Assembly (NCBI GenBank): GCA_934045905.1
Contig: OW203770.1
Coordinates: 4,588,001-4,652,000, forward strand
Reading direction: 5' to 3'
Source: Leuctra nigra
Taxonomy: Eukaryota; Arthropoda; Insecta; Plecoptera; Leuctridae
Length of the DNA stretch: 64,000 bases
The notes beneath the pieces were generated by a model. That model worked only from the letters and a program-made list of their open reading frames with translations. It ran no database searches and was not told the origin of the DNA. Positions 2,371-58,716 of the stretch are shown here, piece by piece. How positions within the stretch are numbered: the stretch's first letter is position 1; every line of letters starts with the position of its first letter. The translations under genes were made by a program, and so were the position numbers.

Positions 2371-2509
2371 TTCACCTTCCATCTTTCATCTTCTACCATT
2401 CCTTTTCATCGTCAAATCCAAACCTTTATTCACATCCAAAACATTTCTAGCGATCAGTCTCCTGCCTCTCTTAGAGACGATGTGTTAACTAATATTTAAA
2501 CTCTCCCAG

Positions 2510-35595: not shown

Positions 35596-36672
35596 TTACG
35601 GCAAGTAAAGATTGATTCTTAACAGTTGTCCATTGTCGATGGCGGCACGGCGAGTTCTTCTCGCAATCTTCTTCGACTTCCTTTCCCTCTCCCTCTCCAT
35701 CAGTTTGACAGCAACACAAGGTATTCTGTCACCGATAGCCTTCAGCCACATGGTCCGAGTCGCTTTGTCCAGGAATATGAAGAACAAAGCCAACATGAAC
35801 ACGTGGGTCGTTGCTGTCATCAGAAACAAGTACTCGAAGATGAATTTATTCTTGATCACTCCTTCCTCGGATAGTAAATGGAACGTCCAAGTCAGTCCGA
35901 ATAGAAAGAAGATGAACAGACTCGTTCCAAGACGGCGTAACTGTACCTTCCGACTGCTCAATCCGTGGGTCTCCATTCCTTCTATTTTACCCCAACCGAA
36001 ACAATGGTAAATGCGTGCGGTGATCAAAACAAATATAATTACATTCGCTATTAGGACGAGAGCTGCAGGTAACTGTACCGTAAGTTCAAAAGATAAACCT
36101 TCTGGGTAACAAAACCCTCGGTTCCTCAAATCAGTTCGGTACAATTCAGTGCTCAAGGATGTTAGAGTGATGATAGGGATCAAGGGCAAACCCCAGGCGA
36201 TCACAGCTACCTTAGCAAGTAGATGGCGAGTGCTTTTTGCACCAAGAACCGTAAGAAGACGTTTCAACTGTAAACCTGACATAACACACAGCCAGGCAAA
36301 CATAGCGAGATAAGAATAGTGACGTATGAGGCCAATAGCAAGACATGATCTACTTCTCAAATCATAATTCTTGAAGTTGTTGAGGAAACCAAACACAAGA
36401 TTGAGAATAAGCGCCAGGATCATGTGCAGCAGGATCTGGTGTCCCATGTCTCTCCTCCATTTCTTGAAGACAAGAGCAGTGATGATGATGCTGGATATTC
36501 CAAAGCCGGAGAGAAAGATCTCTCCTATCATGATGCCGTAGAGCAGGCTGTTGTCCTTGATGTAGTTCTGGAAACTGGCGGCAGGTTCGTAGATGATGTA
36601 TACGCCACCGAAACTATTCCAACCATTCCAGGCCACCTTGCACCGGCAGACGCTCAGAGCACCGACAGTTTC
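35596..36672 (-). CDS. Adhesion GPCR exon 8 (GPS end, 7TM, tail)
   Basis: TTTCCAG acceptor, TAA stop. TM1 near LYGIMIGEIFLSGFG, TM2 ILLHMILALILNLVFGFL, TM3 RHYSYLAMFAWLCVMSGLQL, TM4 VAVIAWGLPLIPIITL, TM5 LPAALVLIANVIIFVLI, TM6 LFIFFLFGLTWTFHLL, TM7 FLMTATTHVFMLALFFIFL. The HY..LA.F.W and WG.P patterns are family B2 hallmarks. The tail is basic (MERERERKSKKIARRTRR). Confidence 0.97.
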   Translation of the reverse strand, partial: ETVGALSVCRCKVAWNGWNSFGGVYIIYEPAASFQNYIKDNSLLYGIMIGEIFLSGFGISSIIITALVFKKWRRDMGHQILLHMILALILNLVFGFLNNFKNYDLRSRSCLAIGLIRHYSYLAMFAWLCVMSGLQLKRLLTVLGAKSTRHLLAKVAVIAWGLPLIPIITLTSLSTELYRTDLRNRGFCYPEGLSFELTVQLPAALVLIANVIIFVLITARIYHCFGWGKIEGMETHGLSSRKVQLRRLGTSLFIFFLFGLTWTFHLLSEEGVIKNKFIFEYLFLMTATTHVFMLALFFIFLDKATRTMWLKAIGDRIPCVAVKLMERERERKSKKIARRTRRAAIDNGQLLRINLYLP

Positions 36673-39600
36673 CTGGAAAGTCCTTACAATTATATATATA
36701 TTGTAACTGACAACTGTATGTAACTCATATGTAGAAGGCCGGAAGTTGAATTCTGTGATTGTTTTCAGAAGAGCTGTAATACCAGTATGATTGTTTTCGT
36801 CAAATCCTATTTAGAATGCTATTTGTCTGGGAATTACAAAATGATATGCATTAATGTATGAATGTTCATAGAATCCAAAATTTCGGTTGGACTTCCATCG
36901 TTTTGCAACTGAAAGCTATGAACACTATTCTTTATGCATTATTATTCACGTCAGACTTTTGCTATGGGTTGACCTTGATTTCCTGACAAAAGTATAGACT
37001 TCCAGCCTTCAACCCGAGATATAGATGTTCACACTTTGCAGATTTATGAAATAGTAATTGAATAATATAATACCTTTTGGTTTTCACAACTGTCCGTATC
37101 CCACTCGAATAAATCTATGTTCAGATCTAAGCTCAGACGAGCGCAAGCGCGGATTCTCTCTGTATCTGCCGTTTTGGTTGGAAACGCTATCTGAACGAAG
37201 GAGTCCGAACCATAGGAGGCGTCTTGTCCTTTGGTAGGCGACGACAGAGAAATAATCACGACAGGGTTGCTGCTTGCGTACCTGACAGACAAAATAATAC
37301 AATCGCATTTTATAACAATAGGTAACACAAACTATCCTGTTAGAGTCCATCGCCCAGGTGGCCGAACCTTCCCCCCCACCCCTCACCCCTTGCGGACGCA
37401 TGGAGACATTACTTTTTTGAAAGATCGGTAAATTTGTAGTAGAATTTCACTTGTCTGCACTTTGGCGCCTGGTGGGTACGGTCAGTTGGGGGGGGGGGGG
37501 GGGGGGGGGGGGGGAGGCACCTTGCATATTAGTGACAAATAAGCAATGCAAGTATTGTAAATGGCAATCAACTATAAACGTTACACATGTTATTTTTACA
37601 CGTAATACCTAACACATGAAAAAAAATCACAATTTGCCCATGAAAATTTGATTTTTTTTTAATGTCACATACATGTGTACAAGTAATTTATACACAAATT
37701 TAAAGCCTTGGAAATTTTCATGACAAATCCCAACACTATACACCCCCCACCCCCCAGGCGCTACAGTGCGGACAATTTTCACTAAAAATATGGCCCTCTA
37801 TCAAAAAAAATATGGTCACTGAAAATCCCCTTGGTTGAGAAACCCCCAAAAGTGGAAGATATCAAAATTTCGGTTTCGGGGGCATATGCAAAATAATTTT
37901 AATACTCTTAATGACTATTACTCACGAATGTGATTAATAAACTCACAATATTTTCTTCTAATCACATATGTTACAAATATTTTTGAAAAAGTAAAAAAAA
38001 TGACTTTTTGGCCTTTTAGGAGCTACGTAAGTATTGCGATTAGGGCCTTTTACCATCTCAAATTATCTTCCGATGAAACCTACTATTGGTTTACTGTTAG
38101 TTTTTTTAATTTTCAAAGCAGTTTAATTTTTTTTGTAAAGTGTCAAAATTTTGACTTGACGGTAAAAGGTGCTTTAAAAAAACTATGCAGTGTAGTTTTA
38201 TATCCCATTTCTAAATATATGTTCAGAAAGACTCAATCACTTACTACCTTCTTGTCACAATTAATGAATTAAATACTCAAAAAATGTCAAAAATGCCACT
38301 TTAACCCCCCCCCCCCCTGTGCTACACCACACCCACCAGGGGTCAAATTGCAGACAAGTGAATTTTCACTTCAAATATGACCATCTATCAAAAAAATTTA
38401 GTTACAGCAAGTTATTAGTTATCATAGTGTTATCAGCAAGTATTAGAATGTGCCAACAAAATAGGGAAATTCTTGTCTGTGACGTATTAATTTTATATAT
38501 CGTCTGTAAGATTCGTCCAGACATAATTATATTTCTAATTTTGGGTTGCTGTAACGATGATTCAACCCCCAAGTTGGTGGAGTAGAACGGTCTGCTTATA
38601 TTTACTCCTCAGCTGACCAGAACAGGTAATTGCAATATGCTATATTGCAAATTGCAACCTTCATTCGTCTATAGGGGCCGCGGGACGCGAGAATGGAAAC
38701 GACAAAGAGTTGCTTATGGGAGAAGCGGCTATTTCACTGAGATGCTCCGCTGCGCTGTTGAATGCGCGTAAGATGTGTATATTATGAAGCATTTAGATAT
38801 CGCAGACCCAATAGCTCAGTTGGTAAAGCATTGGCCTGTGGTGCAAAAGGACGTCGGTTCGAATCCTGCCCGGTCTCACTTCTTCTTCTTCTTCTTCTTC
38901 ATTTAGATATCGCAGACCCAATAGCTCAGTTGGTAAAGCATTGGCCTGAGGTGCAAAAGGACGTCGGTTCGAATCCTGCCCGGTCTCACTTCTTATATTG
39001 CATTTTTTACAAGTTTTAATTCTGCCTAACCATAGAGTTATTTTTTCCCAGCTTAAATTTTCTCAAGTTAGAATTTGTCTACCCATAGAGAGTTTTATTC
39101 CTGAGGCTGCCCAGTAAAACGTATGCGCATCCGACTGCACAGCAAAGCAAATCAGCTCAATCAGCTGCTTCTCCCATAAGCAACTCTTTGTCGTTTCCAT
39201 TCTCGCCCACGGGAAGCCGGTCATCTTGGATATGAAAGTAGGATTTTAGGGTAGATGTTGACCATCTACATTAACATATGAGATAGTATCGAAACCACAA
39301 ACCATTAAAATTTTAAGTTTTTGATATTTAAATCTAACTGTGAACTATCACATTGACTTTTATATTAAAACTAGAGTAATCTCCACTATCACTTACTGGT
39401 TTATCTTGCCCTTGTGGAATACATAATCAGTTTTGCTGTAAAAGCCACCAAGTCTAACGTTGTTTTGAACTAAATCAATGGACACTGTGACCGCAACTTC
39501 TGTCTCGTCTGTTATGTAGTTGGTATCGGAAGCTCTGATTGGCTGCATGGTCATGTTCTGTGTTGTTGAGTTGCTTGTGAGGTTGAACCCGACGATTGGA

Positions 39601-42600
39601 TTCTCAGCAACATTTGTGTTTGCTACGAAGAGGGCGAGGTCACATGATTCAGCCAACTCGTACTCACTGTGAGGGACCTGGAAACATATTCATACATGAT
39701 AAATATTCTTAGTAATACTTTGATGAAAGTCGTCTAGTCTTACATCTATAGGCTCATCTTTATAAGGGTACAACTTAACTCAATCGGAGGAACGGAAATG
39801 TGGAACGGAAGTGGGTACGGAAGTCAGGTCAACATTTCCAGGAATCCGTCGTCGCTAAAGTCGTTCGTATCCGATCTGTGGATTGGGATTTTCTTGAAAA
39901 ACAGGTATTTTACGAACCCCTAAGCGAGCAAAACAGGTATTTTACGAACCCCTTAGTGAGCTCAACCCAAGAGAAGGCTCGGCATAACAATGGGGCATGG
40001 TGCGCACGCAGGTAAAGTAGGGGACGGGACAGTAAAAATACCCTTTTCCAATCCACAGATCGACTGCTGTTTACTTTAGATAAACAGTGACTCAGCGACG
40101 GCTGACTCATCCATTACAGTTGCGTAACGCAAACTGGCGGGTGGAGGGGGAGGGGTGAGGTTCATTACTTTCTGAATGAATTCTTCTACATAACGCCGCA
40201 CTCTTCAGCACTTACTTTAGTATATTATGATGGAAGATAGTGGTGAAGAGTATAGGTAAGGATGGACGGTGGGAAGGAGGCGGTCGTGGCCTATTAGTAT
40301 AGGGTACCTTCCCAGCATTTGCCTCTCGTGTATGTATGTATGTATGTATGTATGTATGTATGTATGTATGTATGCTCAAAGTACGTATTTGGCCCGTAGC
40401 CTAAGAAATGATATTCCAAGAATGGGGCAACTATGCAGACAGCCTTGCGCCGACGGTAAAATCTCAACCCGATTAGTCAGAATACGAGCAGAATAAGGGT
40501 AAGTATCAAATCAACAGCGAATCTCTGCCAGCGCTGATATTACGTGTGACAGGCAAGACAACTATAGTGTTTTCTTTTGTTTCTCATTAGAAAATAAAAT
40601 GTAAGTAATATAAAATAATTTCATTACGAATAGTATGCATGTGGTTATTAGGTATATAAATAATCACATTTCTAAAAGTTGCATGTAAAATTAATTCGCG
40701 TGAATATAAATTTCGTTTAAAATTATATATTTTTAATATTTATAAACCTGACTGACGAGATGACTGAGATCAAACACGACATTATTGAAGCGACATTATA
40801 TTATAATGAATGCTGAACACAGATCCGATGCAGGTGTTTCCTTGAGGGATATTTCAGATGTTATGAGCTTGGGTTTTTATTTAGGTGTTGTTGAGTTATT
40901 AATTGAGAAAGGTTTTGTCAGATTGTTTGAAGACATTGTGATTGGTAATGTTGTAACGACAATGGAGGGGGAAAGAGCAATGTCTTATTGGTAGCCATGT
41001 CGACGTTACAAGCTGCAATAAAAGTGTCATAGGTGACTCCGTAACCGATCGATTCAGGGGCCCACCCCTGAATACGCCCTTGCTATTGTTATGAGATGAG
41101 ACCAGAAAAATAGCCAAAAATAGCGTGGAAAATAGAAATTCCGAACAGAAAATAGTTTTTCGCTGTTGCAAATTCCGTGTCAAACGTATTGACGACTTTC
41201 GGGTTAATTCAGTTCACCCCCCCCCCCCCCCCCCCTCCCCCACCTCTCTCCTACACTACAATTTTTTTGATAACGAAATTCTACCAGCTGTAACTTTGTT
41301 CCTGCTTAATTTGTGCAGTAATTACGTCACAGAGATGTCTTGCCCTTTATGCGTTTTGTTTGGGTCTTTTGTAGGATAGTACGTTTTATAAGAGATTTTG
41401 TTCTTGGTTTATTATTCCTATTTCAATTCTTCGCAAGAAAACTTCTCATTCATGGGGAAATACTACCTACAAAAACTTGAATACATTATAAGAGAAATTA
41501 CCTTAAAGTTATCAACTACATTCAATATATTCCAGATAATCCTATCAATATTTTCGTGTGAGTTATATTGAAAGAATTCGGCTTGAGAGTCCATTGCCGA
41601 GATAATTTCTCCGAGTGTAGTACCGTTTAATCCGACTTGCAGAAGTGCACCCATGAACTGCCAGCTCTGTAATAGAATCAAGAGTGTTAATAACATCGAT
41701 GGAAAATGTGAAATAAACATGTGTAATTCATTTGTAACTGTATTTTTAATTTATCTTCGTGGCAACCTTTTGTACAGTTGAGAAATGTATAAAGGAATTT
41801 ATTTGACAACATTAAAAAGTATAATAAAATGTAATATTTTACCAAATGCCCCCCTAAACAACAACCAATGGGCCAGACTTCGCTGTGATCAAACTACTGA
41901 ATTGATCGGACTGAATATTTCACATATTATAAAACACATATTACTATGGGTTGATGTGTTAAAGTTTCTTAAACATTACTTCAGTATAAAAGATACAGCT
42001 GTTCGAATTTGGTTGGCGAAAAATCGATACGGTGCTCAAATAGCCTTCGCCCAGAAAACCATCAATGGCCGGGAAAGCGATTCTTCAAAACTATTGACGA
42101 TAACAAGCAAAATCTTTATAATTTAAACTATCGATTGTGTTATAAATCAATAGGTACTACATTTAAATCAATGGAACTAAAGTTATGGTATCTTGAAGTT
42201 GCGAGCCACCAGAAAATCCGGGAGTTGTGGTTGCGGGGCTAGGCTGTATTATTTTCTGAATGTAAGTTATTTGCATATAGGGCCGGTATTAACAACAATA
42301 AATATAATGCAGTTAGGGCCGGTATTACCAAAGTTAATCTGAGCTGGATTAAATAAATATTGGACTAAATTGGCGGCGCAGCCAATCAGATATCTCAAAA
42401 TTATTGAAACAGTTGCATTTAATCCAAAAGTTAGTTAACCAGCAAATTTACCTTAGTAATACCGGGCCTTAATGTTATCTGAGGGTTATTTAAACTGAGG
42501 AAATATGCTCCGGAATTAAATTATACCAACCGTAATAGAATCAATAAGTTTCAAATTCCACTTGTTCTGGTATTCGACTGCGTATTTGTGGAGGTCCAAA

Positions 42601-45600
42601 TGGTCAGAATGAGAGTAGCAAGGGTCAGAACGCCACGTCGTAACTTCTGACCAAACAACAGTGTATCTGTCCCAGTAGCATTCCCGTGCAGCTGTGAGGT
42701 TGCCGGTCACCACAGTAGCCACATTGTCTAGAACAATACACATGTGTCAACACAAGTAGCATTCCCGTGCAGCTGTGAGGTTGCCGGTCACCACAGTAGC
42801 CACATTGTCTAGAACAATACACATGTGTCAACACAAGTGGCATTCCCGTGCAGCTGTGAGGTTGCCGGTCACCACAGTAGCCACATTGTCTAGAACAATA
42901 CACATGTGTCAACACAAGTGGCATTCCCGTGCAGCTGTGAGGTTGCCGGTCACCACAGTAGCCACATTGTCTAGAACAATACACATGTGTCAACACAAGT
43001 AGCATTCCCGTGCAGCTGTGAGGTTGCCGGTCACCACAGTAGCCACATTGTCTAGAACAATACACATGTGTCAACACAAGTAGCATTCCCGTGCAGCTGT
43101 GAGGTTGCCGGTCACCACAGTAGCCACATTGTCTAGAACAATACACATGTGTCAACACAAGTAGCATTCCCGTGCAGCTGTGAGGTTGCCGGTCACCACA
43201 GTAGCCACATTGTCTAGAACAATACACATGTGTCAACACAAGTAGCATTCCCGTGCAGCTGTGAGGTTGCCGGTCACCACAATAACCACATTGTCTAGAA
43301 CAATACACATGTGTCAACACAAGTAGCATTCCCGTGCAGCTGTGAGGTTGCCGGTCACCACAGTAGCCACATTGTATAGAACAATACACATGTGTCAACA
43401 CAAGTAGCATTCCCGTGCAGCTGTGAGGTTGCCGGTCACCACAATAACCACATTGTCTAGAACAATACACATGTGTCAACACAAGTAGCATTCCCGTGCA
43501 GCTGTGAGGTTGCCGGTCACCACAGTAGCCACATTGTATAGAACAATACACATGTGTCAACACAAGTGGCATTCCCGTGCAGCTGTGAGGTTGCCGGTCA
43601 CCACAGTAGCCACATTGTATAGAACAATACACATGTGTCAACACAAGTGGCATTCCCGTGCAGCTGTGAGGTTGCCGGTCACCACAGTAGCCACATTGTC
43701 TAGAACAATACACATGTGTCAACACAAGTAGCATTCCCGTGCAGCTGTGAGGTTGCCGGTCACCACAGTAGCCACATTGTATAGAACAATACACATGTGT
43801 CAACACAAGTAGCATTCCCGTGCAGCTGTGAGGTTGCCAGTCACCTCAGTAGCCACATTGTCTAGAACAATACACATGTGTCAACACAAGTAGCATTCCC
43901 GTGCAGATGTGAGGTTGCCGGTCACCACAGTAGCCACATTGTCTAGAACAATACACATGTGTCAACACAAGTAGCATTCCCGTGCAGCTGTGAGGTTGCC
44001 GGTCACCACAATAACCACATTGTCTAGAACAATACACATGTGTCAACACAAGTAGCATTCCCGTGCAGATGTGAGGTTGCCGGTCACCACAGTAGCCACA
44101 TTGTCTAGAACAATACACATGTGTCAACACAAGTAGCATTCCCGTGCAGCTGTGAGGTTGCCGGTCACCACAATAACCACATTGTCTAGAACAATACACA
44201 TGTGTCAACACAAGTAGCATTCCCGTGCAGCTGTGAGGTTGCCGGTCACCACAGTAGCCACATTGTATAGAACAATACACATGTGTCAACACAAGTGGCA
44301 TTCCCGTGCAGCTGTGAGGTTGCCGGTCACCACAGTAGCCACATTGTATAGAACAATACACATGTGTCAACACAAGTGGCATTCCCGTGCAGCTGTGAGG
44401 TTGCCGGTCACCACAGTAGCCACATTGTCTAGAACAATACACATGTGTCAACACAAGTAGCATTCCCGTGCAGCTGTGAGGTTGCCGGTCACCACAGTAG
44501 CCACATTGTATAGAACAATACACATGTGTCAACACAAGTAGCATTCCCGTGCAGCTGTGAGGTTGCCAGTCACCTCAGTAGCCACATTGTCTAGAACAAT
44601 ACACATGTGTCAACACAAGTAGCATTCCCGTGCAGATGTGAGGTTGCCGGTCACCACAGTAGCCACATTGTCTAGAACAATACACATGTGTCAACACAAG
44701 TAGCATTCCCGTGCAGCTGTGAGGTTGCCGGTCACCACAATAACCACATTGTCTAGAACAATACACATGTGTCAACACAAGTAGCATTCCCGTGCAGATG
44801 TGAGGTTGCCGGTCACCACAGTAGCCACATTGTCTAGAACAATACACATGTGTCAACACAAGTAGCATTCCCGTGCAGATGTGAGGTTGCCGGTCACCAC
44901 AGTAGCCACATTGTCTAGAACAATACACATGTGTCAACACAAGTAGCATTCCCGTGCAGATGTGAGGTTGCCGGTCACCACAGTAGCCACATTGTCTAGA
45001 ACAATACACATGTGTCAACACAAGTAGCATTCCCGTGCAGATGTGAGGTTGCCGGTCACCACAGTAGCCACATTGTCTAGAACAATACACATGTGTCAAC
45101 ACAAGTAGCATTCCCGTGCAGCTGTGAGGTTGCCGGTCACCACAGTAGCCACATTGTCTAGAACAATACACATGTGTCAACACAAGTAGCATTCCCGTGC
45201 AGCTGTGAGGTTGCCAGTCACCACAGTAGCCACATTGTCTAGAACAATACACATGTGTCAACACAAGTGGCATTCCCGTGCAGCTGTGAGGTTGCCAGTC
45301 ACCACAGTAGCCACATTGTCTAGAACAATACACATGTGTCAACACAAGTGGCATTCCCGTGCAGCTGTGAGGTTGCCAGTCACCACAGTAGCCACATTGT
45401 CTAGAACAATACACATGTGTCAACACAAGTAGCATTCCCGTGCAGCTGTGAGGTTGCCAGTCACCACAGTAGCCACATTGTCTAGAACAATACACATGTG
45501 TCAACACAAGTAGCATTCCCGTGCAGCTGTGAGGTTGCCAGTCACCTCAGTAGCCACATTGTCTAGAACAATACACATGTGTCAACACAAGTAGCATTCC

Positions 45601-48600
45601 CGTGCAGATGTGAGGTTGCCGGTCACCACAGTAGCCACATTGTCTAGAACAATACACATGTGTCAACACAAGTAGCATTCCCGTGCAGCTGTGAGGTTGC
45701 CGGTCACCACAATAACCACATTGTCTAGAACAATACACATGTGTCAACACAAGTAGCATTCCCGTGCAGATGTGAGGTTGCCGGTCACCACAGTAGCCAC
45801 ATTGTCTAGAACAATACACATGTGTCAACACAAGTAGCATTCCCGTGCAGATGTGAGGTTGCCGGTCACCACAGTAGCCACATTGTCTAGAACAATACAC
45901 ATGTGTCAACACAAGTAGCATTCCCGTGCAGATGTGAGGTTGCCGGTCACCACAGTAGCCACATTGTCTAGAACAATACACATGTGTCAACACAAGTAGC
46001 ATTCCCGTGCAGATGTGAGGTTGCCGGTCACCACAGTAGCCACATTGTCTAGAACAATACACATGTGTCAACACAAGTAGCATTCCCGTGCAGCTGTGAG
46101 GTTGCCGGTCACCACAGTAGCCACATTGTCTAGAACAATACACATGTGTCAACACAAGTAGCATTCCCGTGCAGCTGTGAGGTTGCCAGTCACCACAGTA
46201 GCCACATTGTCTAGAACAATACACATGTGTCAACACAAGTGGCATTCCCGTGCAGCTGTGAGGTTGCCAGTCACCACAGTAGCCACATTGTCTAGAACAA
46301 TACACATGTGTCAACACAAGTGGCATTCCCGTGCAGCTGTGAGGTTGCCAGTCACCACAGTAGCCACATTGTCTAGAACAATACACATGTGTCAACACAA
46401 GTAGCATTCCCGTGCAGCTGTGAGGTTGCCAGTCACCACAGTAGCCACATTGTCTAGAACAATACACATGTGTCAACACAAGTAGCATTCCCGTGCAGAT
46501 GTGAGGTTGCCGGTCACCACAGTAGCCACATTGTCTAGAACAATACACATGTGTCAACACAAGTAGCATTCCCGTGCAGCTGTGAGGTTGCCAGTCACCA
46601 CAGTAGCCACATTGTCTAGAACAATACACATGTGTCAACACAAGTAGCATTCCCGTGCAGATGTGAGGTTGCCGGTCACCACAGTAGCCACATTGTCTAG
46701 AACAATACACATGTGTCAACACAAGTGGCATTCCCGTGCAGCTGTGAGGTTGCCGGTCACCACAGTAGCCACATTGTCTAGAACAATACACATGTGTCAA
46801 CACAAGTAGCATTCCCGTGCAGCTGTGAGGTTGCCGGTCACCACAGTAGCCACATTGTATAGAACAATACACATGTGTCAACACAAGTGGCATTCCCGTG
46901 CAGCTGTGAGGTTGCCGGTCACCACAGTAGCCACATTGTCTAGAACAATACACATGTGTCAACACAAGTAGCATTCCCGTGCAGCTGTGAGGTTGCCGGT
47001 CACCACAGTAGCCACATTGTATAGAACAATACACATGTGTCAACACAAGTAGCATTCCCGTGCAGCTGTGAGGTTGCCAGTCACCTCAGTAGCCACATTG
47101 TCTAGAACAATACACATGTGTCAACACAAGTAGCATTCCCGTGCAGATGTGAGGTTGCCGGTCACCACAGTAGCCACATTGTCTAGAACAATACACATGT
47201 GTCAACACAAGTAGCATTCCCGTGCAGCTGTGAGGTTGCCGGTCACCACAATAACCACATTGTCTAGAACAATACACATGTGTCAACACAAGTAGCATTC
47301 CCGTGCAGATGTGAGGTTGCCGGTCACCACAGTAGCCACATTGTCTAGAACAATACACATGTGTCAACACAAGTAGCATTCCCGTGCAGATGTGAGGTTG
47401 CCGGTCACCACAGTAGCCACATTGTCTAGAACAATACACATGTGTCAACACAAGTAGCATTCCCGTGCAGATGTGAGGTTGCCGGTCACCACAGTAGCCA
47501 CATTGTCTAGAACAATACACATGTGTCAACACAAGTAGCATTCCCGTGCAGATGTGAGGTTGCCGGTCACCACAGTAGCCACATTGTCTAGAACAATACA
47601 CATGTGTCAACACAAGTAGCATTCCCGTGCAGCTGTGAGGTTGCCGGTCACCACAGTAGCCACATTGTCTAGAACAATACACATGTGTCAACACAAGTAG
47701 CATTCCCGTGCAGCTGTGAGGTTGCCAGTCACCACAGTAGCCACATTGTCTAGAACAATACACATGTGTCAACACAAGTGGCATTCCCGTGCAGCTGTGA
47801 GGTTGCCAGTCACCACAGTAGCCACATTGTCTAGAACAATACACATGTGTCAACACAAGTGGCATTCCCGTGCAGCTGTGAGGTTGCCAGTCACCACAGT
47901 AGCCACATTGTCTAGAACAATACACATGTGTCAACACAAGTAGCATTCCCGTGCAGCTGTGAGGTTGCCAGTCACCACAGTAGCCACATTGTCTAGAACA
48001 ATACACATGTGTCAACACAAGTAGCATTCCCGTGCAGATGTGAGGTTGCCGGTCACCACAGTAGCCACATTGTCTAGAACAATACACATGTGTCAACACA
48101 AGTAGCATTCCCGTGCAGCTGTGAGGTTGCCGGTCACCACAGTAGCCACATTGTCTAGAACAATACACATGTGTCAACACAAGTAGCATTCCCGTGCAGC
48201 TGTGAGGTTGCCAGTCACCACAGTAGCCACATTGTCTAGAACAATACACATGTGTCAACACAAGTGGCATTCCCGTGCAGCTGTGAGGTTGCCAGTCACC
48301 ACAGTAGCCACATTGTCTAGAACAATACACATGTGTCAACACAAGTGGCATTCCCGTGCAGCTGTGAGGTTGCCAGTCACCACAGTAGCCACATTGTCTA
48401 GAACAATACACATGTGTCAACACAAGTAGCATTCCCGTGCAGCTGTGAGGTTGCCAGTCACCACAGTAGCCACATTGTCTAGAACAATACACATGTGTCA
48501 ACACAAGTAGCATTCCCGTGCAGCTGTGAGGTTGCCGGTCACCACAGTAGCCACATTGTCTAGAACAATACACATGTGTCAACACAAGTAGCATTCCCGT

Positions 48601-51600
48601 GCAGCTGTGAGGTTGCCAGTCACCACAGTAGCCACATTGTCTAGAACAATACACATGTGTCAACACAAGTGGCATTCCCGTGCAGCTGTGAGGTTGCCAG
48701 TCACCACAGTAGCCACATTGTCTAGAACAATACACATGTGTCAACACAAGTGGCATTCCCGTGCAGCTGTGAGGTTGCCAGTCACCACAGTAGCCACATT
48801 GTCTAGAACAATACACATGTGTCAACACAGGTAGCATTCCCGTGCAGCTGTGAGGTTGCCGGTCACCACAGTAGCCACATTGTCTAGAACAATACACATG
48901 TGTCAACACAAGTGGCATTCCCGTGCAGCTGTGAGGTTGCCAGTCACCACAGTAGCCACATTGTCTAGAACAATACACATGTGTCAACACAAGTGGCATT
49001 CCCGTGCAGCTGTGAGGTTGCCAGTCACCACAGTAGCCACATTGTCTAGAACAATACGCATGTGTCAACACAAGTAGCATTCCCGTGCAGCTGTGAGGTT
49101 GCCGGTCACCACAGTAGCCACATTGTCTAGAACAATACACATATGTCACACAAGTAGCATTCCCGTGCAGCTGTGAGGTTGTCGGTCACCACGACCACAG
49201 TAGCCACATTGTCTAGAACAATACACATGTGTCAACACAAGTAGCATTCCCGTGCAGCTATGAGGTTGCCAGTCACCTCAGTAGCCACATTGTCTAGAAC
49301 AATACACATGTGTCAACACAAGTAGCATTCCCGTGCAGCTGTGAGGTTGCCGGTCACCACAGGAGCCACATTGTCTAGAACAATACACATGTGTCAACAC
49401 AAGTAGCATTCCCGTGCAGCTGTGAGGTTGCCGGTCACCACAGTAGCCACATTGTCTAGAACAATACACATGTGTCAACACAAGTAGCATTCCCGTGCAG
49501 ATGTGAGGTTGCCGGTCACCACAGTAGCCACATTGTCTAGAACAATACACATGTGTCAACACAAGTAGCATTCCCGTGCAGCTGTGAGGTTGCCGGTCAC
49601 CACAATAACCACATTGTCTAGAACAATACACTTGTGTCAACACAAGGAGCATTCCAGTGCAGCTGTGAGGTTGTCGGTCACCACAGTAGCCACATTGTCT
49701 AGAACAATACACACGTGTCAACACAAGTAGCATTCCCGTGCAGCTGTGAGGTTGCCGGTCACCACAGTAGCCACATTGTCTAGAACAATACACATGTGTC
49801 AACACAAGTAGCATTCCCGTGCAGCTGTGAGGTTGCCGGTCACCACAGTAGCCACATTGTCTAGAACAATACACATGTGTCAACACAAGTAGCATTCCAG
49901 TGCAGCTGTGAGGTTGCCGGTCACCACAGTAGCCACATTGTCTAGAACAATACACATGTGTCAACACAAGTAGCATTCCCGTGCAGCTGTGAGGTTGCCG
50001 GTCACCAGAGTAGCCACATTGTCTAGAACAATACACATGTGTCAACACAAGTAGCATTCCAGTGCAGCTGTGAGGTTGCCGGTCACCACAGTAGCCACAT
50101 TGTCTAGAACAATACACATGTGTCAACACAAGTAGCATTCCCGTGCAGCTGTGAGGTTGCCGGTCACCACAGTAGCCACATTGTCTAGAACAATACACAT
50201 GTGTCAACACAAGTAGCATTCCAGTGCAGCTGTGAGGTTGCCGGTCACCACAGTAGCCACATTGTCTAGAACAATACACATGTGTCAACACAAGTAGCAT
50301 TCCCGTGCAGCTGTGAGGTTGCCAGTCACCTCAGTAGCCACATTGTCTAGAACAATACACATGTGTCAACACAAGTAGCATTCCCGTGCAGCTATGAGGT
50401 TGCCAGTCACCTCAGTAGCCACATTGTCTAGAACAATACACATGTGTCAACACAAGTAGCATTCCCGTGCAGCTGTGAGGTTGCCAGTCACCTCAGTAGC
50501 CACATTGTCTAGAACAATACACATGTGTCAACACAAGTAGCATTCCCGTGCAGCTGTGAGGTTGCCGGTCACCACAGTAGCCACATTGTCTAGAACAATA
50601 CACATGTGTCAACACAAGTAGCATTCCCGTGCAGCTGTGAGGTTGCCAGTCACCTCAGTAGCCACATTGTCTAGAACAATACACATGTGTCAACACAAGT
50701 AGCATTCCCGTGCAGCTGTGAGGTTGCCGGTCACCACAGTAGCCACATTGTCTAGAACATTACTCATGTGTCAACACAAGTAGCATTCCCGTGCAGCTGT
50801 GAGGTTGCCGGTCACCACAGTAGCCACATTGTCTAGAACAATACACATGTGTCAACACAAGTAGCATTCCCGTGCAGCTGTGAGGTTGTCGGTCACCACA
50901 GTAGCCACATTGTCTAGAACAATACACATTTGTCAACACAAGTAGCACTCCCGTGCAGCTGTGAGGTTGCCGGTCACCACAGTAGCCACATTGTCTAGAA
51001 CAATACACATGTGTCAACACAAGTAGCACTCCCGTGCAGCTGTGAGGTTGCCGGTCACCACAGTAGCCACATTGTCTAGAACAATACACATGTGTCAACA
51101 CAAGGAGCATTCCAGTGCTGAGGTTCCCGAGGTTGCTGAGGTTGCTGAGGGTGTGAGGTTGCCGGTCACCACAGTGCCAGAGAACAAATTATTTTTATAA
51201 AATTCCAGTTATAAAATTTTTGAAGTGAAATAAATAGTTAATCCAACTTGATTATGTTTTCAAATTACATTCACGATAGTTCTGGGATGAAATTGGGGTC
51301 GTGAAAACCCTCTAGAGTAAAAATTAAAGATTTTTTAATTCGAAATTGAGCATAATTTCTATTAATATATCCTTCATTTTACTGATGTACTAGCTGCTAG
51401 AACACAGTATGTATCCTACACTTCTAAATCAGAGTTCTATTCGTATAAATAAGTTACTTATTAGAGTTTTTGTCAGAGTCAATTTACGTCCCATTTACGA
51501 AGTCTTTGCCAGAAAAATTCTCGCTTCCCGCGCAATGCCACATGGTACTGATTTTAATTTATGTAGTGGAGTGGTCGTTCCACCCAGCCAAGTCGTATTG

Positions 51601-54600
51601 GAAACTGTTACTCTTTCATCATACCGTTACTGCCTAATAAACTAAGGAGCAGACCAAACTCTTTTTCTGTAGGCAACAACATGGTATTTTCGGCCTATCG
51701 GATCTCAAAATTGGAAAATCTCACATTGTTGAGAAATATCTTAATTTCGAGCTATGGCCTACCCTGACCCACCACATATACCAAACTTGGGAACAAAAGG
51801 ATATGCCCTTTGCGAAAACCGTGAAATTATCTTCTTTCATCTTCTTCGATTGGCCGTGAAAGCCGTGAAATTACGTCACTTTCATCTTCTTCAGATTCAG
51901 ATATCAGGAAGCGTCGCGTCGCGTCACCGCCACAGCCTAAATGGCTGAAGCGATCGATCTGAAATTTTTACCATGTGTACACTTTTGGCGTTTGATGATA
52001 CCTTGCTCTTATACATTCTTTGTGCCGCCATTTTGAAACCGGAAGTGACGTCATGCAAAAAAATGGCTGGACCGATCGGAATGAAATTTGCGCCATTTCA
52101 TTCAGACGGTCCTCTATATGAAATATCAATAGACCAAAATATACATGTACTATTACAGAAACCGGAAATGACGTCATTAGAATGAAAAATCAGACATCAC
52201 CTCTTCTTATTACAATAACTACATATTATTCAGAAGGCTTAATGATACATTCTAATGTTACATTCATTTATAAATACATTCTAGGTGGCAGTGATTTCAG
52301 CCGCCATTTTGTTAACCGGAAGTAATGCAATATCTCGGAAATGGTTTGACCGATTGGAAAAAAGCTTTCGCTTTTCTTCATGTAATATCATTTCATGATC
52401 ATTTAAAGCAATATTTAGTAACAAACGCAACTTTCTTAGTAACCAAAATTGGATTATTTTTTTAAAGGAATTAGTCTTTGTTGCCCCGATATGTGTTACA
52501 AGTGTGAGAATATTCTAAAAAAGGAGTGATATCCCCATAAAAAACACTTCGTGTAAAAATACCAGCCAAGTCTTTTCAACTATAAAAAATATAAGAAATC
52601 AAAAAATTTCAGCACTGAAAAGTAGTGAAATCAAAAAATAGGCCAAGTCAAAACTTAATTTTAAAAACCAAAATATACTTGGCGCATCGTTTTTAAGGGC
52701 ATTATAGGTATGTTATACATATAGACGTACATTTGATTTTTGGCATATACTTCTATTATATATATAAATGTATATAAATGGTAATTATTATTATTATTGT
52801 GAATAAATAATAAATAATAATAATAATAATAATTACCATTTATATACATGATGCGCCAAGTATATTTTGGTTTTATAATTAAGTTTTGACTTGGCCTATT
52901 TTTTGATATCACTACTATCAGTGCTGAGATTTTTCGATTTCTTATATTTATTTATAGTTGAAGAGACTTGGAGACTTGGCTGGTATTTTTACACGGAGTG
53001 TTGGGGTTTCTCCTACAGGTGGCACTTACTTGCTCCTGTGCTGGGCCAAGTCGATGTCATCGTATTTTTCTGAGTTACGCTGCTTGGACAAAGGTCAATC
53101 TCTTGTATATCCGTCACATTGCCGCGACCCTCTAGCACCAGGACCTTGCCGCCGTACTTAGTAAACTGTGCCATGGAGTCTTCGTCGTAGGAGGCGTTCC
53201 TCAGGTCCACTTGCAAGTGGAGGATGTTCGGTTGGTTCACCTCGTAATATGACGTAGTTATGTAATCCAATTCAATGTCCAACTTCTTAGCTAGAGCTTT
53301 ACTTATCTGTCAGAAATATCAGTTTAAGTAAATGAAAACAAAAGGTAATCTATGTGATAGTTATTAGACACCTTCATTACCTGTTTTGTTTTTGACTTGT
53401 TGTTGACCAGTTGAATGGCGACGTCGAATATGTTGAAACATGAGTCAATCTCTGGAATGGGAGGATAGACAGCCACTGTGACGTCAGAGCGAAGTGTCAT
53501 CTCACAGAGAGCGCAGCTGAACGTGAAGCTGTCGTCCACGAGCTGCCATTGGCTGGTGCTCGGATTCAAGCTGCCCACAATGCCTTGCATGGAGTCGACT
53601 TTCAGTGTCTTAGCGTAGATGTCGGTGACAGGCTGGATAAATACTGCCGTTTAGTTATGTTATGAGGTTAGATTTAAAAACCCCAAATATAAAACCATTT
53701 TCAACGTGCTAAACCTAGTCACACTTCATCACCAATGGACTGCCACCTTGACGTGGTGGTGGGGCTTAAGGGGCCGCCTCACATTACATGCTGGTCCTAA
53801 TTAAGTGCTGTCCAGGGTCGACCTAGTCTCATGCCCTCCCCTTGGGCCGGTCTCCCCCCTTGAGATGGTGATCCCCCTGTATTCGGGTCCCACCGGCCCG
53901 AAGCCTCCCTCCTCCCTTGTCCGACCGGCCATTCTGAACTGGCCTACCCACCAGTTTTAGACTCCCCCGGATCGGGCCCGTAAGGTCGACTTCTCCCCAT
54001 GTCCTCCACGTATGATCAACAACGTTAAAAGAAATATTAATGTGTGCAAAATGACCTGCAAATATTTAAACAAATCCTGACAAGATCAACAAAAAGCAAG
54101 CTTGTTGAGGCACTTATAATATCTAATTTGAACTATAGGGTCCCGTCATGTAAAACATGGCCAATGTGCACCGGTGAGGTATGCGTGAATATAAAACGAC
54201 AGCAATATTTGTCAGCAGAGTGTGCGTCGTTAATACACTTGACGTCGTTGATGACCTAAAGCTTAACAGAATACGTTAACAAATGAGATACGAAGAACTC
54301 ATTGAAGAAATTCAGCTTAAAGGCAGAATGTATCAGAGATAATTTCACTTTTTGACATTATCAGGTGTAATAAAACTTACGAAACAATCTTCCGAATTTT
54401 CTACTCCCATGTACTCCCCCCCCCCCCCCCCCCTCCTCCCACCAGCACGAATAAAGCCGGGAAGGTCTTCTAGTATATTTATATATATGAATAAATACCA
54501 ACTGCAATATGAAAAGATTTTCCTCGAGTGGGACTCGAACCCACACCTACCGATACCGATATCCGTAGGTCGTGGGTTCGAGTCCCACTCGAGGAAAATC

Positions 54601-55172
54601 TTTTCATATTCATAATATTTTCATATATTCACCCTGCGTTTGTTTAAATTGCCAAAGTTGATGTAATGAACTGAAAATTCACCGCTACTAGCCTATGGCC
54701 CTCTGCCAGTCACTAAAGCCTCGGGCTTAATCGCTGATGAGCATACATAGTAGAATTGAAGGTCCTCAGGCATTTTTAATTTATCGTCATTTTACGAACT
54801 TTTGGGATGCGTTCATTAACCTACCTCTTCTGACACATTATGTCCATTAATCCACACCAGATTCTTCCCATCTTTCCTCACACCAAGCGGAATAAACTCA
54901 GCGCCTTGACACAAGTTCTTCTCAGCTTCCGTCAAGTTGAGGAACCTCTTCTGAAGGATTCTGTATCCAGGATACATTCTCCCACACTCTTCATCCAGAG
55001 CGGTCCACGACTTACTTGCATTCACAAAGCCAGTTGTCTTGATATCACAGTCCAGTGGCAGGAAAGCAGGGACGCAGAAGTCCCCACTGCTGGCCAGTGT
55101 AAATATAGCAGATAATATAGCAAACCGAAACCATTTCGGGTGAAATGATGACGACAGCAACGATTCCAACAT
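35596..55172 (-). CDS. Adhesion GPCR (family B2), 8 exons, complete
   Basis: Cell-surface receptor. Minus-strand exons 55172-54825, 53632-53381, 53306-53030, 42727-42531, 41666-41502, 39677-39397, 37281-37074, 36672-35596 join in frame to 934 residues. Order: signal peptide (about 1-32), Cys-rich ectodomain, an HRM-like segment crossing exons 3/4 (TWPSTGANNVATVV then LTAARECYW), a GAIN-like region with many N-glycosylation sequons, a GPS-like element (SCENQK...CRCKVAWNGW), seven helices (about 620-880) and a basic tail. The GPS lacks the usual HL|S/T: the matching place reads WNS, so autoproteolysis is doubtful, although SFGGVYI resembles a tethered agonist. Exon 4 donor choice (ACG|GTTGGT) is set by frame. 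Ligand unknown; not one of the families I can name. Confidence 0.9.
37074..37281 (-). CDS. Adhesion GPCR exon 7 (GAIN subdomain)
   Basis: CTGTCAG acceptor, GTATTA donor. Encodes YASSNPVVIISLSSP, then FPTKTADTERIRACARLSL and LFEWDTDSCENQK, the beta-rich stretch leading into the GPS. Confidence 0.92.
37440..38370. mobile_element. Decayed TIR element with long G/C runs
   Basis: Outer ends TTTCACTTGTCTGCA...CCTGGTGGG (37445) and its imperfect inverse at about 38333-38370. G run about 37489-37514; C runs near 37741 and 38304. No coding seen. Within GPCR intron 6. Confidence 0.45.
38804..38876 (+). tRNA. tRNA-like sequence 1 (His-type anticodon GTG), probably non-functional
   Basis: A-box TAGCTCAGTTGG and B-box GGTTCGAATCC are intact, with the anticodon loop CTGTGGT. 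The acceptor stem pairs over only about four bases and the D and T stems each have mismatches, so a SINE head or tRNA pseudogene is more likely than a working tRNA. Confidence 0.4.
38914..38986 (+). tRNA. tRNA-like sequence 2 (anticodon position GAG), probably non-functional
   Basis: Tandem copy of the preceding sequence, identical except for CTGAGGT in the anticodon loop. It carries the same stem defects. Confidence 0.4.
39397..39677 (-). CDS. Adhesion GPCR exon 6 (GAIN subdomain)
   Basis: TTTCCAG acceptor, GTAAGT donor; phase 0 in, two bases out (CA|G Gln). Encodes VPHSEYELAESCDLALFV, NLTSNSTTQNMTMQP (several sequons) and SIDLVQNNVRLGGFYS. Confidence 0.93.
40190..40331 (-). mobile_element. 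SINE fragment
   Basis: GGTGGGAAGGAGGCGGTCGT and GGTACCTTCCCAGCATTTGC match the body of the SINE at 30547-30832 in the same orientation. Head and tail are missing. Confidence 0.65.
40332..40374. repeat. (TGTA)n microsatellite
   Basis: About ten uninterrupted TGTA units directly adjoining the SINE fragment. Confidence 0.95.
40375..41501. other. GPCR intron 5, no further exon seen
   Basis: A 69-codon open stretch at 40785-40994 has no recognisable homology and no splice logic. A C run lies at about 41217-41235. Confidence 0.4.
41502..41666 (-). CDS. Adhesion GPCR exon 5
   Basis: TATTACAG acceptor, GTAATT donor, phase 0 both ends, 55 codons. Encodes SWQFMGALLQVGLNGTTLGE, then FFQYNSHENIDRIIWNIL: helical GAIN-A-like content. 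Confidence 0.92.
42313..42472. mobile_element. Short TIR MITE in GPCR intron 4
   Basis: Ends TTAGGGCCGGTATTAC and inverse of GTAATACCGGGCCTTAA; 160 bp, only about 60 bp from exon 4. A second AGGGCCGGTATTA occurs 37 bp to the left, suggesting a partial duplicate. Confidence 0.7.
42531..42727 (-). CDS. Adhesion GPCR exon 4 (HRM-like), source of the 81-bp array
   Basis: Acceptor TTGTTCTAG; donor ACG|GTTGGT inferred from frame. Encodes NNVATVVTGNLTAARECYW, then VVWSEVTTWRSDPCYSH. It continues the WPSTG...R.C...W...C pattern begun in exon 3. Its first 54 nt plus the preceding 27 nt of intron are identical to the tandem repeat unit. Confidence 0.92.
42674..51116 (-). repeat. Exon-derived 81-bp minisatellite, about 104 copies
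   Basis: The unit on the minus strand is 27 nt of intron 3 end (TGTTGACACATGTGTATTGT then TCTAG) plus 54 nt of exon 4 start. Copies are nearly identical. Recurrent point variants (AGATGTG, CTCAGTAG, CAATAACC, TGTATAG on the plus strand) are arranged in higher-order blocks of 9, 12 and 19 units. Because 81 = 3 x 27, several frames stay open over hundreds of codons (up to 687), which I regard as a by-product. Small indels appear near 49145, 49190 and at the decayed 51100-51180 edge. Confidence 0.98.
51181..52017. other. GPCR intron 3, unrecognised sequence
   Basis: No exon seen. Around 51905-52010 the TCGATCTGAAATTT segment resembles Helitron-family interior, but no end motif was found. Confidence 0.4.
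52018..53004 (+). repeat. Composite dispersed repeat, copy C (empty Helitron site)
   Basis: Collinear with copy A (1-1856) without the Helitron; the uninterrupted site is 52176/52177. Ends in a foldback hairpin whose right arm stops 25 bp from the exon 3 donor of the GPCR. Confidence 0.75.
52526..53004. repeat. Foldback (hairpin) element, copy C
   Basis: Arms about 52526-52693 and 52850-53004 carry CTTGGCGCATCG and inverse. The loop holds an (AAT)n/(ATT)n tract and an inner inverted pair TATATAAATGGTAATTATTA. Confidence 0.75.
53030..53306 (-). CDS. Adhesion GPCR exon 3
   Basis: CTGACAG acceptor, GTAAGT donor; one base (A) left, completed by exon 4 as A|AC. Encodes LDIELDYITTSYYEVNQPN, GGKVLVLEGRGNVTDIQEI, then LCPSSVTQKN and STWPSTGA. 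The WP.T.G motif is HRM-like. Confidence 0.93.
53381..53632 (-). CDS. Adhesion GPCR exon 2
   Basis: TTATCCAG acceptor, GTAATG donor, phase 0 both ends, 84 codons. Encodes PVTDIYAKTLKVDSMQG, then SFTFSCALCEMTLRSDVTVA and DSCFNIFDVAIQLVNNKS. Confidence 0.92.
53720..54139 (+). mobile_element. LINE-like fragment in GPCR intron 1
   Basis: A GC-rich block (53735-54005, starting GGACTGCCACCTTGACGTGG) of the type seen in non-LTR retrotransposon leaders is followed by an open stretch reading RSTKSKLVEALIISNLNYR, resembling the late reverse-transcriptase region (K..L..A.I...L.Y). It is cut off at 54139 by the next repeat. Recognised from motif memory only. Confidence 0.4.
54140..54297 (+). repeat. Dispersed repeat (pair with 31650-31806)
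   Basis: Second copy of the GGTCCCGTCATGTAAAACAT repeat, inserted against the LINE-like fragment. Confidence 0.7.
54506..54610. repeat. Near-perfect palindrome made of tRNA-like 3' halves
   Basis: 39-bp perfect arms (54506-54544, 54572-54610), extended imperfectly through ACCTACCGATA / ATCCGTAGGT. Each arm contains a B-box GTGGGTTCGAGTCCCAC, so a tRNA 3' half faces its own inverse. Flanked on the left by a C run at about 54416-54433. Confidence 0.85.
54825..55172 (-). CDS. Adhesion GPCR exon 1 (signal peptide)
   Basis: ATG at 55172; donor GAG|GTAGGT, phase 0, 116 codons. Begins MLESLLSSSFHPKWFRFAIL; the hydrophobic run FAILSAIFTLASSG is a signal peptide core, with cleavage likely before DFC. 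Six Cys follow, including LDCDI, EECGR and NLCQG. The upstream in-frame TTG at 55199 was not used. Confidence 0.88.
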
Positions 55173-55601: not shown

Positions 55602-58600
55602 CCTCCTGACATGAATGTGACGTCACCTTCTGTCTAGATTCTCCGCGTGGACATCCTGGAGGTTGCCGGCGAGAGTCTGAGTCCTGACATCGACATCGGA
55701 CAAGTGGAGGGCGTTGTGGACCACCCTCCTGACATGAATGTGACGTCACCTTCTGTCTAGATTCTCCGCGTGGACATCCTGGAGGAAGCCGGCGAGAGTC
55801 TGAGTCCTGACATCGACATCGGACAAGTGGAGGGCGTTGTGGACCACCCTCCTGACATGAATGTGACGTCACCTTCTGTCTAGATTCTCCGCGTGGACAT
55901 CCTGGAGGATGCCGGCGAGAGTCTGAGTCCTGACATCGACATCGGAAAGTGGAGGGCGTTGTGGACCACCCTCCTGACATGAATGTGACGTCACCTTCTG
56001 TCTAGATTCTCCGCGTGGACATCCTGGAGGATGCCGGCGAGAGTCTGAGTCCTGATCGACATCGGACAAGTGGAGGGCGTTGTGGACCACCCTCCTGACA
56101 TGAATGTGACGTCACCTTCTGTCTAGATTCTCCGCGTGGACATCCTGGAGGATGCCGGCGAGAGTCTGAGTCCTGACATCGACATCGGACAAGTGGAGGG
56201 CGTTGTGGACCACCCTCCTGACATGAATGTGACGTCACCTTCTGTCTAGATTCTCCGCGTGGACATCCTGGAGGTTGCCGGCGAGAGTCTGAGTCCTGAC
56301 ATCGACATCGGACAAGTGGAGGGCGTTGTGGACCACCCTCCTGACATGAATGTTACGTCACCTTCTGTCTAGATTCTCCGCGTGGACATCCTGGAGGATG
56401 CCGGCGAGAGTCTGAGTCCTGACATCGACATCGGACAAGTGGAGGGCGTTGTGGACCACCCTCCTGACATGAATGTGACGTCACCTTCTGTCTAGATTCT
56501 CCGCGTGGACATCCTGGAGGTTGCCGGCGAGAGTCTGATTCCTGACATCGACATCGGACAAGTGGAGGGCGTTGTGGACCACCCTCCTGACATAAATGTG
56601 ACGTCACCTTCTGTCTAGATTCTCCGCGTGGACATCCTGGAGGATGCCGGCGAGAGTCTGAGTCCTGACATCGACATCGGACAAGTGGAGGGCGTTGTGG
56701 ACCACCCTCCTGACATGAATGTGACGTCACCTTCTGTCTAGATTCTCCGCGTGGACATCCTGGAGGATGCCGGCGAGAGTCTGAGTCCTGACATCGACAT
56801 CGGACAAGTGGAGGGCGTTGTGGACCACCCTCCTGACATGAATGTGACGTCACCTTCTGTCTAGATTCTCCGCGTGGACATCCTGGAGGATGCCGGCGAG
56901 AGTCTGAGTCCTGACATCGACATCGGACAAGTGGAGGGCGTTGTGGACCACCCTCCTGACATGAATGTGACGTCACCTTCTGTCCAGATTCTCCGCGTGG
57001 ACATCCTGGAGGTTGCCGGCGAGAGTTTGAGTCCTGACATCGACATCGGACAAGTGGAGGGCGTTGTGGACCACCCTCCTGACATGAATGTGACGTCACC
57101 TTCTGTCTAGATTCTCCGCGTGGACATCCTGGAGGATGCCGGCGAGAGTCTGAGTCCTGACATCGACATCGGACAAGTGGAGGGCGTTGTGGACCACCCT
57201 CCTGACATGAATGTGACGTCACCTTCTGTCTAGATTCTCCGCGTGGACATCCTGGAGGATGCCGGCGAGAGTCTGAGTCCTGATCGACATCGGACAAGTG
57301 GAGGGCGTTGTGGACCACCCTCCTGACATGAATGTGACGTCACCTTCTGTCTAGATTCTCCGCGTGGACATCCTGGAGGATGCCGGCGAGAGTCTGAGTC
57401 CTGACATCGACATCGGACAAGTGGAGGGCGTTGTGGACCACCCTCCTGACATGAATGTGACGTCACCTTCTGTCTAGATTCTCCGCGTGGACATCCTGGA
57501 GGATGCCGGCGAGAGTCTGAGTCCTGACATCGACATCGGACAAGTGGAGGGCGTTGTGGACCACCCTCCTGACATGAATGTGACGTCACCTTCTGTCTAG
57601 ATTCTCCGCGTGGACATCCTGGAGGTTGCCGGCGAGAGTCTGAGTCCTGACATCGACATCGGACAAGTGGAGGGCGTTGTGGACCACCCTCCTGACATGA
57701 ATGTGACGTCACCTTCTGTCTAGATTCTCCGCGTGGACATCCTGGAGGATGCCGGCGAGAGTCTGAGTCCTGACATCGACATCGGACAAGTGGAGGGCGT
57801 TGTGGACCACCCTCCTGACATGAACGTGACGTCACCTTCTGTCTAGATTCTCCGCGTGGACATCCTGGAGGATGCCGGCGAGAGTCTGAGTCCTGACATC
57901 GACATCGGACAAGTGGAGGGCGTTGTGGACCACCCTCCTGACATGAATGTGACGTCACCTTCTGTCTAGATTCTCCGCGTGGACATCCTGGAGGATGCCG
58001 GCGAGAGTCTGAGTCCTGACATCGACATCGGACAAGTGGAGGGCGTTGTGGACCACCCTCCTGACATGAATGTGACGTCACCTTCTGTCTAGATTCTCCG
58101 CGTGGACATCCTGGAGGACGCCGGCGAGAGTCTGAGTCCTGACATCGACATCGGACAAGTGGAGGGCGTTGTGGACCACCCTCCTGACATGAATGTGACG
58201 TCACCTTCTGTCTAGATTCTCCGCGTGGACATCCTGGAGGAAGCCGGCGAGAGTCTGAGTCCTGACATCGACATCGGACAAGTGGAGGGCGTTGTGGACC
58301 ACCCTCCTGACATGAATGTGACGTCACCTTCTGTCTAGATTCTCCGCGTGGACATCCTGGAGGTTGCCGGCGAGAGTCTGAGTCCTGACATCGACATCAT
58401 CGGACAAGTGGAAGGCGTTGTGGACCACCCTCCTGACATGAATGTGACGTCACCTTCTGTCTAGATTCTCCGCGTGGACATCCTGGAGGATGCCGGCGAG
58501 AGTCTGAGTCCTGACATCGACATCGGACAAGTGGAGGGCGTTGTGGACCACCCTCCTGACATGAATGTGACGTCACCTTCTGTCTAGATTCTCCGCGTGG

Positions 58601-58716
58601 ACATCCTGGAGGAAGCCGGCGAGAGTCTGAGTCCTGACATCGACATCGGACAAGTGGAGGGCGATGTGGACCACCCTCCTGACATGAATGTGACGTCACC
58701 TTCTGTCTAGATTCTC
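55602..58716 (-). repeat. 123-bp exon-like minisatellite, about 25 copies
   Basis: Units of 123 bp (41 codons), nearly identical, GC-rich in an AT-rich setting. On the minus strand each unit looks like a 102-nt exon, ATTCATGTCAG|GAGGGTGGTCC...AGACAGAAG|GTGACG, encoding RVVHNALHLSDVDVRTQ then TLAGILQDVHAENLDRR. On the plus strand a second open frame reads VDILEDAGESLSPDIDIGQ after TTCTGTCTAG. The strand of origin is not settled. Variants include GAT/GTT/GAA at the codon after CTGGAG (plus strand) and small indels near 55945, 56055, 57285 and 58395. Confidence 0.95.

Follow-up and report, generated by a model that had tools for sequence, protein, structure and literature searches.

The window considered here is the whole stretch of 64,000 nucleotides from the plecopteran insect Leuctra nigra (assembly GCA_934045905.1, contig OW203770.1, positions 4,588,001 to 4,652,000), and its principal feature is a long tandem array within intron 3 of an adhesion G protein-coupled receptor (GPCR) gene, in which the end of the intron and the beginning of exon 4 are repeated. 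The gene lies on the minus strand and is described by a spliced model of 8 exons with GT-AG introns and agreeing phases, encoding 934 amino acids. Exon 1 with the start codon occupies 54825..55172, exon 2 53381..53632 and exon 3 53030..53306, the latter ending at the donor CAA/GTAAGT with one base left over. The true exon 4 (42531..42727, 197 nt), of which the first 54 nt are repeated in the array, has the weak donor GTTGGT and is followed by exons 5 (41502..41666), 6 (39397..39677), 7 (37074..37281) and 8 (35596..36672), the last of which carries the secretin-type seven-transmembrane domain (Pfam 7tm_2, residues 635-864, E = 4.7e-14). Besides 7tm_2 Pfam gave no match in the 934-residue receptor, neither to HRM nor to GPS/GAIN, and the sole protein match among 7993 scored candidates was an uncharacterized Tribolium madens protein with a 7tm_2-type domain (34% identity over 28% of the query).

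Tandem Repeats Finder (TRF) placed the array at 42674-51118 with a period of 81, 104.2 copies and 97% matches, and a scripted scan of the window gave 104 consecutive exon starts (ACAATGTGG) on the minus strand, spaced by 81 nt in 102 of 103 cases and by 86 nt in one, the single longer unit beginning at 49212 in the spacing listing. Each 81-nt unit consists of 27 nt of intron end (TGTGTTGACACATGTGTATTGTTCTAG, with a branch-like TTGAC) and the first 54 nt of exon 4, and the innermost copy, at 42727, continues directly into the true exon; its authentic 3' splice site occupies 42728..42754 on the minus strand according to the spliced model and the acceptor listing. The copy number, the composition of the unit and the continuity with the exon were all put forward by the first-pass annotation and are borne out by these results and the gene model. 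It had also spoken of about a hundred equivalent acceptors, which is correct for most of them: the 27-nt intron ends are identical in 89 of 104 copies, and the 103 outer exon starts (42728..51118, minus strand, TRF and scripts) follow AG in 94 cases and AT in the 9 that have lost it (TTCTAT). At the left edge a degenerate unit copy without TTCTAG extends over 51103..51188 (minus strand, limits set by eye), containing 9-bp sub-repeats according to TRF. Among the 103 outer units 23 types can be told apart, and blocks of 14, 12 and 11 units recur; the array evidently turns over by duplication of multi-unit blocks. It cannot have arisen by chance.

Splicing of exon 3 (end 53030) to the next-to-innermost copy gives a predicted product of 312 amino acids ending in NNVATVVTGNLTAARECYLC before a stop, and the early stop foreseen in the first reading of the sequence is met from every outer start, after 20 amino acids in 102 of 103 and after 28 in the remaining one. 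Every outer acceptor choice in the window gene truncates the predicted receptor before the membrane domain, and a full-length product needs the innermost acceptor. The location of the truncation within an HRM-like segment, as first proposed, found no support in Pfam. Skipping of exon 4 breaks the reading frame in the model. A coding role of the array itself was considered on account of its long open frames and rejected, one such frame giving no protein match at E 0.01 among 7994 scored candidates; open frames of this length are expected there because 81 is a multiple of three.

Two side observations concern the receptor exons. The sequence TTGATTCTATTAC is present both at the end of exon 4 (42532-42544) and at the end of intron 4 (41669-41681), which may be chance, paralogs having similar exon ends. 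Exon 5 (41502-41666) appears to be evolving faster, with 75-80% identity in five matching loci against 91-97% for exons 1-4.

Paralogous exon 4 loci and unit classes

The comparison covered 43 exon 4 loci of the same genome, a lower bound, which came from searches at the DNA level for the exon start, where 40 of 44 candidates were scored, and at the protein level for exon 4, with scores for 150 of 467; two further short matches, C11:26854435 and C9:7009724, lie outside this count. Arrays are present at 30 of these loci in six unit lengths between 80 and 133 nt, with 81 nt at 19 loci, 80 nt at six, 107 nt at two and 115, 127 and 133 nt at one each. No array copy was found within about 400 nt upstream of exon 4 at the other 13 loci, and a short match about 3 kb upstream of one of these (L042) may be a remote copy. 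The number of exon starts per array ranges from 3 to 104, counting the real one and some degenerate edge copies; the 22 starts at L018 include 3 of a separate group. The close paralog L015, whose exons are 96-100% identical to those of the window gene (exon 5, 90%), has 24 exon starts compared with 104 in the window gene within this single assembly, and its exon 3 is frameshifted. The 81-nt family is concentrated at C6:23.4-24.2 Mb, where 15 of its 19 members lie, and an orphan group of about 6 units of 81 nt was detected at C6:24227.7-24228.3 kb (L029 end, L018 start) with no exon 4 in the next 5 kb. For the 133-nt array (L012), no receptor exon besides exon 4 was found in the 9.9 kb examined.

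Exon 3 was available for 20 array-bearing paralogs, in which the length of intron 3 varies from 261 to 10302 nt. In 14 of them no more than 99-111 nt separate the exon 3 donor from the first AG, so that intron 3 consists there almost wholly of array; collapse of the array would then leave an intron of about 100 nt. Outer starts in the paralog arrays typically meet a stop after 20, 27 or 32 amino acids, and some in arrays with odd-length units stay open for 39 to 236. No stop was present in any recovered exon at 13 of the 14 loci of the 81-nt family that were checked, mostly partial gene stretches and exclusive of L018 and the frameshifted L015. Stops were found in exon 4 of L027, which belongs to the 81-nt family, and of L058, which has an 80-nt array, and there is a net one-base gap in the exon 5 alignment of L025.

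The units form two classes. Class A (80 and 81 nt) is composed of the intron end and 54 nt of exon 4, with the intron end joined to exon position 54, and the same intron end stands single in the arrayless paralog L051 (GTGTTGACACATCTGTTTGTTCTAG). Class B (107, 115, 127 and 133 nt) has a longer exon part, in which a TGACCCCTGCTACTC-like exon stretch sits where the branch point and pyrimidine tract of the next acceptor should be. In the 133-nt array (L012) the 26 nt that make up the branch-point and pyrimidine region of the outermost copy, TCTTGACCCCTGCTACTCTCACACTG, match the exon interior exactly, and in one 107-nt array (L010) 14 nt are common to the outermost intron end and the exon interior at the same place. 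By eye, the 107-nt unit is the 115-nt unit less 8 nt. The two classes may have arisen separately or by serial deletion from a single array. On an exon 4 tree from which the repeated start was left out (144 columns, 18 of 37 inner branches unresolved), the absence of an array calls for 6 changes, at least 4 of them forced by starred branches, and the presence of an array has changed several times in the receptor family, by gain or loss.

Fourfold sites at the start of exon 4 show unusual conservation. When the window gene is compared with L009-L011, the differences amount to 1/33 in the start against 13/23 in the rest of the exon and 69/190 in exons 1-3, and the corresponding figures for start and rest of exon 4 are 3/50 against 26/35 in the 80-nt class A arrays and 2/53 against 20/37 in class B. 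Freezing of synonymous sites by the array was tried as an explanation and rejected, because the arrayless paralogs also show the conservation, if to a lesser degree (22/101 against 34/60, where the rows L044, L055 and L059 look misaligned by one codon and inflate the count for the start). An array is thus not needed for it, and an exonic splicing signal is possible.

A second boundary array and neighbouring genes

A second boundary array is located on the plus strand at 55602..58716, about 0.4 kb upstream of the GPCR start codon, and was delimited by TRF, Pfam and scripts. It comprises 25 units, 21 of them of 123 nt, each with the start of a xanthine dehydrogenase (XDH)/aldehyde oxidase exon (ILRVDILEDAGESLSPDIDIGQVEG, Pfam MoCoBD_2) and about 47 nt of intron end finishing in TTCTGTCTAG. 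The exon part encodes a molybdopterin-binding segment that is conserved (PF20256, E = 3.7e-9 for two units), and 26 of 26 acceptors end in AG. No exon is attached to the array, which therefore lacks the contiguity with a true exon seen in intron 3, and an XDH gene in the window was considered and discarded, a motif search of the window yielding no other XDH exon. A DNA search with the array identified at least one other genomic place, an XDH-like gene (L040, C4:37551500-37558500) in which 5 outer copies of 111 nt precede the real exon at C4:37554531-37555164, and each outer copy, read in the coding frame, reaches the TAG of the next acceptor. With these copies in place in the XDH-like gene, the 123-nt array of the window is an orphan of the same kind, stemming from a related, not identical, boundary of the XDH-like gene type.

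Other features were noted in passing. An odorant receptor gene lies at 25267-28180 on the plus strand (Pfam 7tm_6, E = 2.8e-31, from an approximate joined model), a family known only from insects. An integrin-alpha-like gene occupies 2493-13155 on the plus strand, with Pfam matches to Ig-like domains 1 and 2, and a low-complexity open frame in that interval (9220-10449) holds a 33-bp minisatellite. At 38790-38994 there are two tandem copies of 110 bp, tRNA-like with a TTC tail and perhaps related to short interspersed nuclear elements. Elsewhere in the genome, positions 1-640 of L017 (C10:20768000) contain 3.8 copies of a 171-bp tandem repeat of a coding segment, which we take to be fucosyltransferase-like.

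Tolerance, function and artefact weighed

The array in intron 3 is probably an unstable minisatellite of the mirage type, a term from amphioxus, which originated by tandem expansion of the intron 3/exon 4 boundary and is tolerated with the innermost acceptor in use. Units that straddle an intron/exon boundary and run on into the true exon are found in the window array, in the paralog arrays and in the array of the XDH-like gene, and the splice signal is kept in many repeats, AG preceding 349 of 390 outer starts in the 81-nt family as a whole. At the innermost acceptor of that family AG is present at 19 of 19 loci. The innermost acceptor would make the receptor through exon definition or exon context, because no other copy is followed by a whole exon that has a 5' splice site of its own. 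Outer acceptors would mostly be ignored, and transcripts using them, with a stop within 20-28 codons, would be subject to nonsense-mediated decay or give a short ectodomain. The copies would then be tolerated without any function maintaining them. Among 368 outer units of the 81-nt family sites of the exon part differ from consensus at a rate of 2.6% and those of the intron part at 2.7%, in an ungapped comparison that leaves out 22 of 390 units with 12 or more differences and counts shared variants many times. Together with the 13 arrayless loci, the range from 3 to 104 starts and the divergent copy number of the close paralog, this equal variability of exon and intron parts makes tolerated junk, one of two options named in the first-pass annotation, the best fit to the data.

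Several points weigh against this interpretation. The use of the innermost acceptor is deduced from sequence, and a short-intron mode of splicing (intron definition) would favour the first, fatal acceptor in the 14 of 20 paralogs with the short distance to the first AG. Nor do the exon 4 donors of the 81-nt family favour exon definition: they have T at +3 in 18 of 19 loci, and T at this position makes a weak donor. The stretch from -16 to -3 before the exon varies less than the rest of the unit, shared ancestry being a confounding factor, and repeated counting of shared variants and the neglect of gaps also bear on the near-equality of exon and intron parts. Finally, among the 19 members of the 81-nt clade no array counts fewer than 3 exon starts, let alone a single one.

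The persistence of arrays at every locus of that clade is what would be expected if the outer copies were poison acceptors that compete with the real one, such that copy number sets the fraction of productive mRNA. This rheostat was the other option of the first-pass annotation and is considered unlikely. Its premises are in place, in that the outer acceptors with their largely identical intron ends closely resemble the real one and an outer choice leads to an early stop in all cases in the window gene and in most in the paralog arrays; nothing in the sequence data, though, supports control by copy number. Nearby copies are missing at the 13 loci mentioned, close paralogs differ between 24 and 104 exon starts with the 24-unit gene frameshifted in exon 3, and some outer starts in arrays with odd-length units remain open well beyond the usual stop. 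AG is absent from 41 of 390 outer starts, among which are shortened copies and degenerate ones at array edges, and the two positions of AG have changed (28 times in 2 x 368) no less often than others in the unit. An extended version, to which we would give no better chance, regards the arrays as recurrent self-expanding repeats of 3' splice site and exon start that are born at preferred exons, whose own interior serves as branch point and pyrimidine tract, spread among paralogs and leave orphans, the output of about 30 receptor genes being set by array length through graded poison acceptors.

It is highly unlikely that the arrays are retained as a recombination substrate for diversifying or multiplying the receptors. 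In the 81-nt family 21 variants are present in the 19 real exon starts, and outer units contain every one of them (12 in the array of the same locus, 9 in other arrays alone); real exons and array units draw on one variant pool within and between paralogs, as expected with exchange. The clustering of the family on C6 would also agree with such a role. Exchange is, however, expected of any shared repeat, no breakpoint has been traced to an array, and loci without nearby copies exist.

An inflation of the copy number by the assembly is scarcely probable. Repetition of blocks of as many as 14 units might conceivably stem from faulty assembly, but the 23 unit types occur in ordered patterns, and like arrays with locus-specific units are present at 29 other paralogous loci and in the unrelated XDH-like gene. 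Rolling-circle amplification of the Helitron kind, with a palindrome and CTAG at the acceptor as terminator, has next to no chance as a general mechanism and was rejected: a perfect 10-bp palindrome does start 20 and 21 nt before the exon, ahead of CTAG, in the two window arrays, but one occurs also at 1 of 6 other acceptors of the receptor gene, and the class B arrays lack the hairpin and CTRR 3' end, 20 of 20 acceptors tested ending in CCAG with no 10-bp palindrome in the last 47 nt (no search was aimed at Helitron genes).

Relation to known boundary repeats

How the spliceosome chooses an authentic 3' splice site over near-identical copies is a long-standing question that is usually studied with minigenes. 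Nature has supplied about 30 constructs of this sort in a single genome, all built on the same exon with 3 to 104 starts each and for the most part still open where checked, alongside 13 paralogs that have no copy nearby. Class B units, in which exon sequence takes the place of branch point and pyrimidine tract, offer models of intron gain through tandem duplication a concrete step, and the mirages are extended from amphioxus to insects. Beyond the first-pass annotation, the array type is family-wide and recurrent, a second array is present in the window, and the phenomenon is known in the literature as a mirage.

The amphioxus mirages (Adh3, the globins BflGb6 and BflGb9, troponin C and PGBD5) are minisatellite-like tandem duplications of intron/exon boundaries with the splice signals included, which show length instability while regular splicing is reported undisturbed by reverse-transcription PCR (PMC3087553, PMC3902484). 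For Adh3, somatic instability has also been reported. Variable internal tandem repeats are described for human genes in segmental duplications, where new introns and alternative transcripts can result from those located at an exon-intron boundary (PMC2812944). This case differs in that human paralogs are concerned, about half of the repeats are coding and RNA evidence exists (PMC2812944). The tandem-duplication model of intron gain (Rogers 1989, Zhuo et al. 2007, as cited in PMC3087553) likewise involves duplicated boundary sequence, and class B units parallel it with exon sequence in place of splice signals. Unlike in that model, the insect duplicates lie inside an existing intron and no new intron is shown. 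No boundary repeat in insects was found in the literature searched, which gave mirages from amphioxus only and boundary repeats from human genes.

The best reading of the insect array is that it belongs with the mirages. Among these, the one in amphioxus BflGb6 likewise repeats the 3' end of an intron together with the start of the exon, in 6 and 3 repeat units compared with 104 exon starts. In contrast to the amphioxus cases, the host is an insect and not a cephalochordate, the family numbers at least 43 loci and its arrays show six unit lengths, class B contains exon-derived branch and pyrimidine sequence, and orphan arrays occur away from the exon. What is new relative to amphioxus would accordingly be the occurrence in an insect, at about 100 copies and across a whole family, with repeated gain or loss, a class with exon-derived branch and pyrimidine sequence, and orphan arrays.

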